Shown: positions 20,311-54,544 of the stretch, piece by piece
How the letters are laid out: the number at the start of each line of letters is the position of its first letter
How positions within the stretch are numbered: the stretch's first letter is position 1
DNA from: Chryseobacterium paludis
GTDB lineage: Bacteria; Bacteroidota; Bacteroidia; Flavobacteriales; Weeksellaceae
NCBI RefSeq assembly: GCF_025403485.1
Contig: NZ_CP099966.1
Coordinates: 3,137,001 to 3,201,000 of the forward strand
DNA: 64,000 bases
Reading direction: 5' to 3'
Program-made: the position numbers and the translations under genes
The notes under the pieces: generated by a model
Told to the model about the DNA's origin: nothing
Database searches by the model: none
What the model saw: only the letters and a program-made list of their open reading frames with translations

Positions 20311-21591
20311 TTAAATGCCAAATGCTGTTTTAATCTCTTCTACTTTGTCTAATTTCTCCCAGGTGAAGAATTCCAGGTCTTTTAACGTAAGCTCGTTTTT
20401 ATGCCCCTTATTGAAGGTTTTATCAGCAATATAATGTTCCTTACCCATATGTCCGTAAGAAGCTGTTTCCTGATAAATAGGATTTCTTAATTTTAAGTTT
20501 TCCTCAATAGCGTAAGGTCTCAGGTCAAAGATCTTAGAAACTTTTTTGGCCACATCTCCATCATGAAGATCAACTTTTGAAGTTCCGTATGTATTGATAT
20601 ACAATCCACAAGGTTCTGCAACACCGATAGCATAAGAAACCTGCACTAATACCTCATCAGCAACGCCAGCAGCCACAAGGTTTTTAGCAATATGTCTTGT
20701 TGCATATGCAGCACTTCTATCTACTTTTGAAGGATCTTTTCCAGAGAATGCACCACCACCGTGAGCTCCTTTTCCGCCGTAAGTATCTACAATGATCTTT
20801 CTTCCTGTAAGTCCTGTATCTCCGTGAGGCCCACCAATCACAAATTTACCTGTCGGATTGATATGATATTTGATCTGATCATTAAATAAAGCTTTAATTT
20901 CATCAGTTTGTTGAGCAACCACTCTTGGAATCAAAATACTTTTGATATCCTCACGAATTTTGTTCAACATTTCTTCTTCAGATCCAAAATCATCATGCTG
21001 CGTAGAAACAACAATAGAATCAATTCTTACCGGCTTATGATCATCAGAATATTCAATGGTAACCTGGCTTTTCGCATCAGGACGTAAATAAGTAATTTCA
21101 GTATTCTCTCTTCTTACCGCAGAAAGTTCTTTCAGGATCGTATGTGCCAAGTCTAATGCTAAAGGCATATAATTAGCCGTTTCATTGGTTGCATACCCAA
21201 ACATCATCCCCTGGTCTCCTGCACCTTGTGCATTGGCTTTACTTTCGAAAGTTTCATCCGCAACTTTTCTGTCAACACCCTGATTAATATCTGGTGACTG
21301 CTCATGAATTGCAGAGATCACTCCACAAGAATCTCCGTTGAACATATATTCACCTTTTGTATAACCAATACCATTGATAACCTCTCTGGCAATAGTCTGA
21401 ACATCAAGATAAGCATCTGACTTAACTTCTCCTGCCAATACTACCTGCCCAGTTGTAACAAGGGTTTCACAAGCTACTTTTGAATTTTTATCGTATGCTA
21501 AAAAATGATCAATTAAAGCGTCAGAAATCTGATCAGCAATTTTATCAGGATGTCCTTCTGAAACTGATTCAGATGTAAATAAATAAGACAT
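20311..21591 (-). CDS. metK: S-adenosylmethionine synthetase
   Basis: A 426-residue enzyme that makes SAM from methionine and ATP. It begins [21 protein letters not shown], the hallmark N-terminus with the catalytic His in GHPDK, contains [12 protein letters not shown], and has [13 protein letters not shown] and [16 protein letters not shown] for substrate and phosphate binding. It is cytosolic and tetrameric in known members. It is a single-gene unit: a SAM-II riboswitch and a well-formed promoter lie directly upstream, indicating feedback control by its own product. Confidence 0.98.
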
Positions 21592-21664
21592 ATTATTCTT
21601 TGTTTTATTAGATTAAAATTTGAGGAATAATGAGAATAATTGCCTTGAAAGCTCAAAAAGGAAT

Positions 21665-21717
21665 ACTGTTTTAGCTTTTTTTTATAGAGGTTGCAATCAG
21701 GTCAAATTTTTCCTCGT
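21665..21717 (-). ncRNA. SAM-II riboswitch upstream of metK
   Basis: Minus-strand leader with the SAM-II pseudoknot pattern. P1 is GAGG (21715-21712) with CCTC (21690-21687). Its loop reads ATTTGACCTGATTGCAA, then an A-rich linker, then GCTAAAACAG, which pairs back with CTGATTGC as in known SAM-II RNAs. From memory the conserved pieces match the alpha-proteobacterial metX example: AUUU-ACC, AUUGCAA and GCUAAA, while the outer pairs differ in a compensating way. It ends about 75 bases before the metK start. Confidence 0.85.
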
Positions 21718-21730
21718 TCGTAAACGTCTG

Positions 21731-42713: not shown

Positions 42714-45458
42714 TTAAAATTTAAATTCAACTCTTGCGAATAAAAATCTCCCACCAATACCATATTGGGAAACCTGTCTCGAATAAACAAACTGATTATC
42801 TGCAGTTAAAGAATTGATAAGAGGATTTTTAGAAGGCATAACATTGAATATATTATTACTTCCTATTGTTGCTGAAACATTTTTATTAAAATCATATCCA
42901 ACAGAAAGATCGGTTACAAAGCGATTATTCAATACAAAATGTTCCTGTTTACCTACAACTCCATCAAAGTTAGCATCCAAAACATCAGCATCTGTTACCT
43001 TACCAAAGAAAGAATTTCTTACCAGAACATTAAAGGCAGAAAATTTTAGAGCATTCGAAAGAGTAGCTTTTACACGAGGAACTGCTTCTTCAAAATACAC
43101 TCTGTTAGGCTCTGAAAAATAACTATCAATTTGACTTACTAACTTGGGAGACGCATGGATCTCACCAATCCTTTTGGTCTGATTAAGATTGAAACCAAAA
43201 TAGTTTTCCAGGCTAATTCCAGAACCTAATCTCGTGGTCTGTGAAATAGTAAGATCAAGTCCTTTTGTTTGCGAATCAACTGCATTAGCAAAGAAATTAG
43301 CAGCGCTCGCCCTGGCAAGATCAAAAGCATTTTGAAGAACAGCTTGGTCAGATCCCGGAGCGAAAGTTCCATCCGGTCGCGAAAACAAGTCAGTTAATAC
43401 CACTCTGTCTTTAATTTTAATATAATAGACATCTGCTGTAACGACCAAATTCAGTTTCGGAACTTTCCAAGTAAGCCCAGTACTATAAGATTGGGAAGTT
43501 TCCTGTTTCAATTTTGGAATTCCCAAAGCCTGTGCCGCTTCAGAATTATTTCTAAAGGTTCCCACCTGTGTAGTCTGTCCCTGCTGAATCAACGTAGATG
43601 TTGAACTATAATAAATCTGAGCCAATGATGGTGCTCTAAAACCTGTAGATACAGCGCCTCTCCAATTGAAATTATCAACCAATCTTACATTGGTCGCAAA
43701 TTTATAATTGAATGTTGATCCAAAATCTGAATAATTCTCATATCGTAATGCTCCTTCTACCAACCACCAATCAGTTGGCTCCAGTTCAACATCCAAATAT
43801 CCCGCAACACTATTTCTATTACCAGAAACTGCATTATCAGGGCTGAAACCCGGAAATACCTGTGAACCGGCAGGTCTGGTATTTCCAAAAAAATCGGTTA
43901 CCAACTCATTTTTAGGAGTATTGACTGTTACTACATTTCCAAAAATATCATAAGAAGCATAAGAGTTTTCTTTACCCGCATTCACTTTATAATTTTCGTA
44001 ACGGTACTCTCCTCCAAAAGCTATGTTTAGCCCATGTAGTACATCATATTTTTTTGAGAAATCAAGATTAAGTGTGTTCTGTAAAAACTCTAAACCTCCG
44101 GCATCAAAACTTCTTGGAGAGTTACTAACCAGGGAAGAATTAAAAGTATTTACTACTCCGAAATTGAATATGTTTTTACCAAAAGTATTGCTTAGGTCTA
44201 CATTCCAGCCATTCCATTTTCCTTTAATTCCAGCTGCATAAGAATAGTCATTAATGGTTGCTTCAATCTGTGGTAAATATCCGTTAGGGGTAATAAAATT
44301 GATATTCCTTTCCGTATTTGGTAAACGGAAAAAACCACCCGCATTTCCTAACCTGTAGCTATAACCACCAAAAGAATAAACTTTCCAGTCATCATTAATA
44401 GGAACTTCTGAATTATAGTACACCTGTGCCGACTGCAGTTTCGATTGTCCAGCTCTGATACTGAAATCTTTTCGTTCTAATCCTCTGTAAGCAAGTTCAT
44501 CATTAGTAACGTCTCCACCCAGTAATCCCTGTAATGTTGAAATACTATTTGCATTTGAAATTTGCGACTGTAAATCAGATGAAAAGTAATTTACTTTTGT
44601 TGCATATTGCTTGATCGCATTGATAATCTGTTGGTTATTAGGTGTATTACCAATATTTTTATACAATCCATCAATGTCCACTCCATCTTGTGCTGCTCTA
44701 TAGTTAATGGCATTATAGGCATTGTAAATATCACCATTTCTCACCCCTGCTCTTGAATAAGGATCCCGATATTGCGTTGATGTGGTAATATTAAAAAAAC
44801 CTTGTTTCCCCAATTTAAAACCATAATTAAGATCTAAGGAAATGGTTTCTCCATCCAAGCCTCCCGAAAAATTATTGGTAACAGGTGAAGCATATCCACC
44901 CAAAAATAGTTGACCAGAAAAACCTAATCTCTTTTTAAGACCTAAATTGACAACTCCGGCAATCGCATCGGAACCATATTGTGCAGAAGCACCGTCTCTT
45001 AATACTTCGATTTTATCCAATGCAAAAGCAGGAATAGCATTAAGGTCTGTTCCTACAGAACCTCTTCCAGGTGTAAGGGTAACGTTAATCAGTGAAGATT
45101 GGTGTCTTCTTTTTCCATTAAATAAGACTAAAACCTGATCCGGTCCTAACCCTCTTAGTTGTGCCGGATCGACAAAATCGGTTCCATCATTCACAGTATG
45201 TGATGTAGAAGAAAAAGAAGGGACTATATAGTTTAAGGCCTGACTTATATTATTAACCGGACTTTGTTTCAATATTTTTGAAATATTAATAACATCTACC
45301 GGAACGGGTGTATCTGTTAGTGATCTACCAGATCCTCTGGATCCAAGTAGAACCACCTCGTCTATTTTCTTAGATTTTATAGTATCTGATTGTGCGTAGT
45401 AAAATGTCGAAATAAGGGTGGCTGAAGTGATGATACTTCTGTGTTTAAAATTGCGCAT
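42714..45458 (-). CDS. TonB-dependent receptor with sulfur-type leader
   Basis: A 914-residue outer-membrane receptor from the Met at 45458 (MRNFKHRSIITSATLIS). The plug domain contains AQLRGLGPDQVLVLFNGKRRH and EVLRDGASAQYGSDAIAGVVN; a 22-stranded barrel follows, and the C-terminus ends FLFARVEFKF, as expected for barrel assembly. The substrate is not obvious from the sequence. Its leader of over 400 bases contains an S-box-like RNA and a Cys/Met-rich small ORF, suggesting that expression responds to sulfur amino acids. I infer import of a sulfur compound or a methionine/cysteine-related nutrient. Confidence 0.88.
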   Translation of the reverse strand: MRNFKHRSIITSATLISTFYYAQSDTIKSKKIDEVVLLGSRGSGRSLTDTPVPVDVINISKILKQSPVNNISQALNYIVPSFSSTSHTVNDGTDFVDPAQLRGLGPDQVLVLFNGKRRHQSSLINVTLTPGRGSVGTDLNAIPAFALDKIEVLRDGASAQYGSDAIAGVVNLGLKKRLGFSGQLFLGGYASPVTNNFSGGLDGETISLDLNYGFKLGKQGFFNITTSTQYRDPYSRAGVRNGDIYNAYNAINYRAAQDGVDIDGLYKNIGNTPNNQQIINAIKQYATKVNYFSSDLQSQISNANSISTLQGLLGGDVTNDELAYRGLERKDFSIRAGQSKLQSAQVYYNSEVPINDDWKVYSFGGYSYRLGNAGGFFRLPNTERNINFITPNGYLPQIEATINDYSYAAGIKGKWNGWNVDLSNTFGKNIFNFGVVNTFNSSLVSNSPRSFDAGGLEFLQNTLNLDFSKKYDVLHGLNIAFGGEYRYENYKVNAGKENSYASYDIFGNVVTVNTPKNELVTDFFGNTRPAGSQVFPGFSPDNAVSGNRNSVAGYLDVELEPTDWWLVEGALRYENYSDFGSTFNYKFATNVRLVDNFNWRGAVSTGFRAPSLAQIYYSSTSTLIQQGQTTQVGTFRNNSEAAQALGIPKLKQETSQSYSTGLTWKVPKLNLVVTADVYYIKIKDRVVLTDLFSRPDGTFAPGSDQAVLQNAFDLARASAANFFANAVDSQTKGLDLTISQTTRLGSGISLENYFGFNLNQTKRIGEIHASPKLVSQIDSYFSEPNRVYFEEAVPRVKATLSNALKFSAFNVLVRNSFFGKVTDADVLDANFDGVVGKQEHFVLNNRFVTDLSVGYDFNKNVSATIGSNNIFNVMPSKNPLINSLTADNQFVYSRQVSQYGIGGRFLFARVEFKF

Positions 45459-45590
45459 GTGTTTTATCTTTTTTGTATTAATGATTGTCTGCTTAAAGCT
45501 TTTAAGCAATAGAAATTCCTAACCCTGCAAGTACAAGGCTAAAAAAGGAAATGATAAACGGTTTTATTAGTTAATAGAAACTAAAGGAAG

Positions 45591-45719
45591 CTAAGAACAG
45601 CAACACATACACATCGAATAATGATATGCATATTGATAGAAATAATGAAGCTTCGCTTCAGTATTCAAAAGACAAAAAGTCAAATTTGTTGTGGTGTCAT
45701 TTCCCGTGTTCTTAAACAT
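45591..45719 (-). CDS. Cys/Met-rich small leader ORF, 42 residues
   Basis: An intact ORF of 42 codons ending HYSMCMCCCS, so five of the last seven residues before the final serine are Cys or Met runs. It lies in the 5' leader of the receptor gene: its stop is 132 bases before the receptor start and its start is about 70 bases after the S-box-like element. Its N-terminal half (MFKNTGNDTTTNLTFC) is unremarkable. Cys-rich leader peptides are known as translation-coupled sensors of cysteine in other bacteria. I infer such a role here; no canonical terminator or antiterminator was found by eye. Confidence 0.6.
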   Translation of the reverse strand: MFKNTGNDTTTNLTFCLLNTEAKLHYFYQYAYHYSMCMCCCS

Positions 45720-45789
45720 TGATTTATACTTTAAAACAAAAATTATAAGATGGGAAGAATAGAGTAAACATTTTTTCCGAAACTGAGTC

Positions 45790-45858
45790 GGCTTATCTAT
45801 TTCAGCACCTTGCTTGTTTTGCAGGTTGCTATCCCATCTATGAGATTCTTGATAATTA
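45790..45858 (-). ncRNA. Compact S-box (SAM-I)-like RNA element
   Basis: The minus-strand leader reads TTATCAAGA, then a hairpin ATCTC/GGGAT, then AGCAACC, a hairpin TGC/GCA, GGTGCTGAAAT and AGATAAG. TTATC and GATAA form the closing stem. The blocks AAGA, AGCAACC, GGTGCT and the closing stem agree with S-box RNAs, but the long P2 with its kink-turn and the P4 stem are missing. It begins right at the predicted transcription start. It may be a reduced SAM-I relative or a separate motif such as an already catalogued Bacteroidota leader. Confidence 0.5.
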
Positions 45859-45863
45859 TGGGG

Positions 45864-45871
45864 CAAAGATA
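45864..45871 (-). promoter_or_regulatory. Promoter -7 element of the sulfur-leader receptor
   Basis: Minus strand TATCTTTG fits TAnnTTTG, placing the transcript start near 45858, exactly at the 5' edge of the S-box-like element. Confidence 0.55.
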
Positions 45872-54323: not shown

Positions 54324-54400
54324 TCCAAGGTTTTTGTTAAACAAATCACTTTAGGAATGGCTATAATTGTACAATAGAATGTACAACAAAAAGTCATCTC

Positions 54401-54480
54401 ACTTTTCCCTACGCTGGTATGATCCAGATCAGGTTCAAAGGGTAAAGTCTCAGTCTGTTTGTAAGCAGACACCCCTAAAG
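54401..54480 (-). ncRNA. TPP riboswitch of the thiamine operon
   Basis: Classic THI box on the minus strand: TAGGGGTGTC, ACTGAGA, TACCCTTTGAACCTGATCTG and GGATCATACC, with a closing stem CTTT/AAAG. It lies directly upstream of thiS. A -7-like TATCTTCG is at 54495-54488. Confidence 0.95.
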
Positions 54481-54544
54481 TATGGAGCGAAGATAGTTAT
54501 TTTTTCAAAATGAGCAAAACTTCAGCTTTATTATTAAAGCAAAT

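Follow-up and report, generated by a model that had tools for sequence, protein, structure and literature searches.

The leader of a TonB-dependent receptor gene in Chryseobacterium paludis contains a full-length aptamer of the SAM-I/IV riboswitch class and a conserved short open reading frame (ORF) ending in a run of cysteine codons. Computed support was obtained for the class, structure and conservation of the aptamer, for the ORF and its coding constraint, and for a predicted switch. We judge it probable that the aptamer switches off with SAM and gates a leader peptide that senses cysteine, which would control a sulfur-related receptor. The ORF is probably the more interesting part of the leader; it lies between aptamer and receptor and was missed by the original prediction for this locus, which described a compact S-box-like RNA. 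Positions given here are those of the window, the whole 64-kb stretch of DNA that was analysed, and all features of the leader, as well as the receptor gene, lie on its minus strand.

Class and structure of the aptamer

Rfam cmscan assigned positions 45761-45860 (minus strand) to SAM-I/IV (RF01725) with 55.4 bits against a gathering cut-off of 41.1. The match, 14 bits above the family cut-off with E = 2.2e-6 over the 64-kb window, spans model positions 1-99 of 99, and by Rfam alignment RF01725, not SAM-I (RF00162), was the best match in the clan. It was one of three above-cut-off matches in a scan of the whole window, all of them riboswitches (TPP, SAM-II and SAM-I/IV). Judged by sequence, nothing sets the aptamer apart from other members of this known class of SAM sensors, and SAM binding is predicted. 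The class was published in 2010 (Weinberg et al., SAM-I-IV-variant; PMC2864571) and is described there as combining SAM-I and SAM-IV features with the P2 internal loop absent, which fits the undivided P2 found here.

The S-box landmarks named in the original prediction (AAGA, AGCAACC, GGTGCT and a TTATC/GATAA stem) were all present on the minus strand, and membership of the S-box/SAM clan was borne out by the RF01725 match. Its size estimate of about 70 bases fell short: the aptamer is about 100 nt, and the 69-nt interval ends before the aptamer's 3' third, thereby omitting P5 (45791-45777) and the 3' strand of the pseudoknot PK-2 (45770-45766). Absence of a kink-turn, PK-1 and P4 held on inspection, but the molecule does have a pseudoknot, PK-2. 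Given the full-length RF01725 match together with PK-2 and P5, a miniature SAM-I or a compact new S-box motif is ruled out in favor of a class known since 2010. The Rfam search thus yielded a clear match to a known element, although one related within the clan rather than unrelated.

We aligned 15 aptamers: that of the window, eight from other Chryseobacterium (L003, L006, L007, L058, L070, L071, L078 and L297) and six from other genera of the order (L261, L290, L292, L286, L284 and L285). Over the SAM-I/IV helices, 99.3% of 413 cells were paired, versus 25-41% when partners were slid by 1-3 columns. Two-sided changes occurred in 25 cells (matched by 0/500 shuffles) and affected six pairs (matched by 20/500 shuffles); a contrary measure, the number of further pair types, was 10, below the shuffle mean of 11.6. 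The covarying pairs were distributed as three in P2, two in P5 and one in PK-2. The P2 hairpin (45831-45846) has six continuous pairs without an internal loop, three of which changed on both sides, as did two of the four pairs of the P5 hairpin (45777-45791). PK-2 (45766-45819), formed by the P3 loop (45819-45815) and the 3' tail (45770-45766), was paired in each of the 15 sequences; the outer pair was A-U in nine, C-G in five and U-A in one. The P1 closing stem (45793-45855; five pairs, TTATC 45855-45851 with GATAA 45797-45793) and the P3 hairpin (45804-45830; eight pairs, core AGCAACC/AAGGTGCT) were invariant, so this sample is uninformative about them either way. Covariation among related leaders, proposed as a check on the original reading, was therefore seen in P2, P5 and PK-2 but not in P1 and P3.

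PK-2 and P5 are also common to SAM-I/IV RNAs. A PK-2 joining the P3 loop to the 3' tail, together with a P5 hairpin, has been described for SAM-IV (PMC6890682), from which the present RNA differs in lacking P2a/P2b and PK-1 and in having P2 as one helix with a short loop. Relative to SAM-I (S-box, RF00162), a member of the same clan found before related receptors of Epilithonimonas and of two Chryseobacterium MAGs, the element lacks by inspection the P2 internal loop and kink-turn, PK-1 and P4. With SAM-I/IV it shares the full-length match, undivided P2, P5 and PK-2. Unlike SAM-I/IV RNAs elsewhere, it precedes a TonB-dependent receptor and adjoins a cysteine-rich leader ORF. A P4 is ascribed to the SAM-I/IV crystal in PMC6890682; the gap between P3 and P1 here is only 6 nt, the Rfam consensus has no P4 there, and the naming of P4 may vary between sources.

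Promoter and receptor gene

A promoter box of the Bacteroidota TAnnTTTG type, TATCTTTG, lies at 45864-45871 and was present in all eight relatives compared. Since TAnnTTTG is reported at -12 to -5 in Flavobacterium psychrophilum (PMC9723704), the spacing of this box places the predicted transcript start near 45859, in agreement with the earlier placement of the aptamer directly at the start of transcription. The gene that the leader would regulate (42714-45458) encodes a 914-aa TonB-dependent receptor with plug and barrel domains (Pfam PF07715 and PF00593), and its ATG at 45458 is about 300 nt downstream of the aptamer. No NCBIfam model scored above cut-off for the receptor, and sequence comparison with solved structures gave only weak siderophore/B12 receptor matches, mostly to the N-terminal part.

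Aptamer and receptor are linked across Chryseobacterium, which supports the receptor as the aptamer's target. RF01725 was found in 9/59 genomes of a search of relatives (own genome included, all Chryseobacterium), in 43/148 Chryseobacterium genomes, in 32/296 genomes of the order and in 33/395 of the class. Within a 60-genome subset of the 148, the same 16 genomes had both the aptamer and an orthologous receptor of at least 78% identity (that of G450 matched in three pieces). Among 66 loci taken from named records, the AGCAACC core was upstream of 31/31 orthologues of at least 81% identity, RF01725 itself being confirmed in the three that were scanned (L189, L195 and L230), and RF01725 was found at 0/35 homologues of at most 57% identity. 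A second, weaker RF01725 copy (44.3 bits; L104 2361-2464, genome G511) sits just before an integrase-like gene.

A cysteine-rich leader ORF under coding constraint

The leader ORF (45719-45591, minus strand) has 42 codons, the translation MFKNTGNDTTTNLTFCLLNTEAKLHYFYQYAYHYSMCMCCCS and the tail MCMCCCS, i.e. Met-Cys-Met-Cys-Cys-Cys-Ser-stop. We examined 33 leaders, part of the 44 RF01725 matches among Chryseobacterium genomes, and 32 of them had, in the same place, an ORF of 41 or 42 codons that ended with CCC plus one residue. The usual tail in Chryseobacterium relatives reads ...RMCCCF, and the one exception (L072) ends in MGCCL. A cysteine-tailed ORF was also present in 4/4 further leaders (L288 and L295-L297). 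Shuffles of the 33 leaders gave an expectation of 0.01 CCC tails by chance, and among 985 ATG ORFs of 6-80 codons in the window, only the leader ORF was CCC-tailed.

Parsimony counting was performed on the 29 ORFs of 41 codons, leaving out three of 42 codons and L072. Synonymous changes numbered 68 in the ORF frame versus 46.1 expected, a value reached by 0/5000 simulations; the other two frames had 38 versus 51.6 and 37 versus 47.1 expected. Internal stops were found in 0 of 29 sequences in the ORF frame and in 27 and 29 in the others. The last 15 codons alone had 23 synonymous changes versus 18.1 expected, which was not significant (P = 0.07). Searches with the leader peptide returned no Pfam family match and no homologue in the protein database searched. 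A CCC-tailed short ORF was found upstream of 30/31 orthologues of at least 81% identity, a count that includes L230, where only a remnant exists that is out of frame apart from the tail; the remaining orthologue (L195) lacks the ORF and still has the aptamer. The ORF was absent upstream of all other 35 homologues among the same 66 loci. Of the properties expected of a cysteine leader peptide, a short ORF with cysteine codons, presence and coding constraint are those found here.

Between the ORF and the receptor, a stem-loop at 45521-45540 gave a weak terminator-like match in this genome; its T tail is not kept in relatives. The stem-loop appears in the consensus fold of the 28 insertion-free leaders and is the longest stem, with at least 7 pairs, in 25 of them; it is cut to 5 pairs in L007 and L009, and another stem is longer in L070. 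Five of the 33 leaders (L004, L060, L061, L066 and L071) have about 250 nt extra between an intact ORF and the receptor, and their longest stem differs from the usual one. As no consistent terminator was found among the leaders, control by an intrinsic terminator is not favored.

Predicted switch at the ORF start

An alternative, SAM-free helix (45737-45851) is predicted that excludes P2 and P1 by pairing their strands with sequences about 75-105 nt downstream. One arm pairs AGATGGGA (45839-45832, in P2) with TCCCATCT (45755-45748), and the other pairs CAAGAA (45851-45846, in P1 and the P1-P2 joint) with TTTTTG (45742-45737). In 16 leaders 98.2% of its cells were paired, with one two-sided change (in L058) that was reached by 25/500 shuffles. 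Free folding favored this helix, with a mean main-helix probability of 0.84 across the 32 leaders scored; the probability was low in L007, L009, L058 and L059, whose predicted free fold is mostly a different one.

When the aptamer forms, folding predicts a hairpin (45707-45739) that covers the leader ORF's start codon; its helix is kept in 95.6% of cells without covariation. With P1/P2 imposed, mean accessibility at the ORF start over 33 leaders was 0.29, versus 0.56 without; it dropped by more than 0.05 in 30 leaders and rose in none. In dinucleotide shuffles of the platform, conducted for seven of the 33 leaders, the natural drop was reached by 3/120 shuffles in L001 and by 0/120 in each of the other six. 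The free-energy cost of imposing the aptamer was unremarkable in four leaders, the proportion of shuffles with at least the natural value being 83/120 for L001, 50/120 for L080, 27/120 for L074 and 14/120 for L008. Because the folding model imposed P1/P2 without PK-2 or SAM, the switch, in which aptamer formation would hide the start of the leader ORF, is a prediction.

SAM riboswitches at related receptors and transporters

Six of the 35 more distant receptor homologues (52-55% identity) have a SAM-I aptamer upstream (65-77 bits). These loci (L215, L216, L217, L219, L220 and L223) belong to Epilithonimonas xixisoli, E. lactis, E. hominis, E. tenax and two Chryseobacterium MAGs, and their leaders contain no cysteine ORF. 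No SAM riboswitch was found upstream of the remaining 29, including L213, L214, L224 and L226 at 55-57% identity, nor at five Chryseobacterium homologues of 57-59% (L097-L101) or at two paralogues in the own genome. In a FastTree tree, SAM-I/IV receptors and SAM-I receptors formed separate clades (support 1.0 each), and the SAM-I clade grouped with riboswitch-free paralogues (support 0.99). The simple reading of this tree is that two aptamer classes were gained independently on the receptor family. Facing the receptor gene in convergent orientation at all six SAM-I loci is a gene that looks like a metal P-type ATPase gene (no family search).

In the own genome, a SAM-I riboswitch at G000:C1:3848076-3848172 (L310) lies before the genes of a SusC/RagA receptor (TIGR04056, 794.9 bits) and of a SusD-like protein, and its leader contains no cysteine ORF. 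The SusC/SusD pair looks like a second outer-membrane system under SAM control.

The aptamer of the window belongs to a subtype, GCAACCTGCA..GCAAGGTGCT, that in other genera of the order preceded a 433-459-aa ORF, at a distance of 49-68 nt, at 7/7 loci examined. Both of the two ORFs tested matched Na_H_antiporter (PF03553, NhaC-type), and none of the seven loci has a cysteine ORF. NhaC-type proteins are proposed methionine transporters (MetT). The suggested extension of SAM sensing to uptake stands insofar as the aptamer precedes a receptor, but it is not unique to this locus, as SAM-I precedes the SusC/SusD pair and the subtype precedes NhaC-type genes.

A plain SAM-I/IV OFF switch at the receptor, with the aptamer alone controlling the receptor message and the ORF being a passenger, is favored by the fact that the riboswitch class is known and sufficient, and by the direct position of the subtype before NhaC-type genes with no cysteine ORF. 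We regard this as unlikely because coding constraint acts on one frame of the ORF, because the 32 leaders that keep the cysteine tail include five with insertion-altered sequence after the ORF, and because the predicted switch acts by hiding the ORF start codon.

Class-wide, a different subtype, CCAACCG..CGGTGG, was present in 28/29 other SAM-I/IV loci examined, and 7/29 preceded a gene read as metK (no family search). Loci of that subtype (L254-L282) were often located before short unknown genes, with a MoxR-like ATPase in three, rather than before methionine genes. The difference between subtypes would be compatible with a ligand-shifted member of the class that binds, for example, SAH or another SAM relative. 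Such a shift appears very improbable, as the subtype sits on transport genes in the manner expected of SAM feedback and the core letters of the aptamer agree with a SAM-I style core.

Cysteine-rich ORFs at other SAM riboswitches

The codon pattern CMCCC had 139 matches in 395 genomes of the class versus 28 for the reversed pattern, an imperfect control. Thirty of these loci were opened, and seven had Met/Cys-rich short ORFs, with tails such as CCMCCCCCMC and CMCCCCMC, before genes read as metX/metY (no family search). A SAM-I riboswitch lay upstream in 7/7 of them, the only loci of this set that were scanned. Starting from 20 SAM-I loci, hand-picked in 11 genomes that each gave at least two SAM-I matches, we found a cysteine-rich ORF in 5/20 versus 1/20 antisense and 0.21 expected. 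Two of the five preceded a metY-like gene, two a SusC-like gene and one an ATP-grasp-like gene; the two metY-like loci (L170 and L172) had been picked in the knowledge that a CMCCC match lay beside them. The metX/metY-like and SusC-like cases come from families other than that of C. paludis. No cysteine-rich ORF was found at the 30 best-scoring SAM-I loci, 16 of which were read as metH, or at 30 cobalamin loci. The arrangement of SAM riboswitch plus cysteine ORF, as it emerges from these sequences, is thus recurrent but selective, and the picking of loci favors it.

Two broader generalizations were rejected. Carriage of cysteine ORFs by all SAM riboswitches of Bacteroidota is contradicted by their absence from the 30 best-scoring SAM-I loci, and cysteine-rich ORFs are not common leaders genome-wide, as only 1/10 MCCC-pattern matches in the own genome, that of the leader ORF, adjoins one of the SAM-I or SAM-I/IV aptamers found. 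Separately, G000:C1:2015459-2016834 contains four similar MCCCLIHV-type stretches spaced by about 340 or 680 bases, which are perhaps antisense to a repetitive protein.

Proposed mechanism and precedents

We propose that when SAM is scarce, the long-range helix would use the P2 and P1 strands and leave the start of the cysteine-rich ORF open. Upon SAM binding P1/P2 would form, and the freed downstream strand is predicted to close the hairpin over the ORF start codon. Because high SAM should stop uptake and the predicted effect of aptamer formation is a closed ORF start, translation of the ORF would have to aid receptor expression, which would depend upon it. Low charged Cys-tRNA would slow ribosomes at the terminal Met/Cys codons and might thereby keep the downstream message intact or open, with coupling achieved, for example, by a stalled ribosome that blocks Rho or an attenuator fold. 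The receptor would be made at low SAM, and probably also at low cysteine, and its substrate is probably related to methionine or sulfur. The sulfur link draws on SAM-I upstream of all six members found of a related receptor clade, on the NhaC-type transporters behind the same aptamer subtype, and on the cysteine-rich ORFs that follow SAM-I before metX/metY-like and SusC-like genes. More tentatively, the leader may be a strict two-input device, in which the aptamer gates the polycysteine ORF, the terminal codons read Cys-tRNA, and receptor synthesis requires that SAM and cysteine both be low. That fuller version, which is possible but on balance somewhat doubtful, would also hold that other Bacteroidota have related sets of SAM riboswitch plus cysteine leader before metX/metY and SusC-like genes, and that a compound bearing methionine or sulfur enters through the outer membrane by way of this receptor family.

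Elements of this scheme have precedents. The mycobacterial polycysteine ORFs of Canestrari et al. (2020) are reportedly leaderless and are not known to have a riboswitch, whereas here a riboswitch precedes the ORF. Both systems have a short ORF with consecutive cysteine codons, which in mycobacteria controls cysteine genes according to a paper citing that work (PMC13236596). The Mbox of Mycobacterium tuberculosis pe20 controls a conserved uORF at the level of translation, and Rho termination is involved (PMC12810186); it is a riboswitch and so resembles the riboswitch-uORF relationship predicted here, but it responds to magnesium, not SAM, and its uORF is not described in the abstract as a cysteine sensor. 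Leader-peptide attenuation has been reported before amino-acid operons in F. psychrophilum (PMC9723704).

A precedent at a receptor gene is CruR of Bordetella, a cysteine-containing uORF whose arrest controls Rho in response to copper before the TonB receptor gene bfrG/crtA (PMC9426467). By analogy, the nascent Cys/His/Met-rich tail of the present peptide might bind copper or another metal and control Rho termination, with the receptor importing metal. The shared position of a cysteine uORF before a TonB-dependent transporter, the His, Met and Cys content of the tail, the siderophore receptors that are nearest by sequence among solved structures, and the convergent metal P-type ATPase-like gene of the six SAM-I loci all accord with such a role. 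CruR, however, is described with DUF2946, CXXC and RAPP, and no riboswitch is mentioned in its abstract, whereas our peptide had no DUF2946 match in Pfam and lacks the RAPP arrest motif. The presence of two SAM riboswitch classes on the receptor family, and of cysteine-rich ORFs that follow SAM-I before metX/metY-like genes, points instead to sulfur amino acids, and we consider a metal-sensing leader quite improbable.

A literature search, with most subscription journals outside its reach, produced no account that we recognized of this arrangement. As a supported prediction, what is new is the coupling of an aptamer to a conserved cysteine-rich ORF, and to a receptor family with two classes of SAM riboswitch. 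In the usual view, a riboswitch works directly at a terminator or at the start of the gene it regulates. If the aptamer acts instead on a leader mini-gene that reads a second nutrient, the leader would integrate sulfur status as a logic element. The receptor family is also tied to SAM by two riboswitch classes on two clades, and its substrate is thereby testable with methionine, methionine derivatives and other sulfur compounds.

Other riboswitches in the window

The remaining two Rfam matches lie on the same strand. A SAM-II riboswitch (21661-21721, minus strand; 65.3 bits) is directly before a gene that reads as metK (20311-21591, minus strand), and a TPP riboswitch (54389-54486, minus strand; 78.6 bits) adjoins a series of genes that look like thiamine biosynthesis genes.
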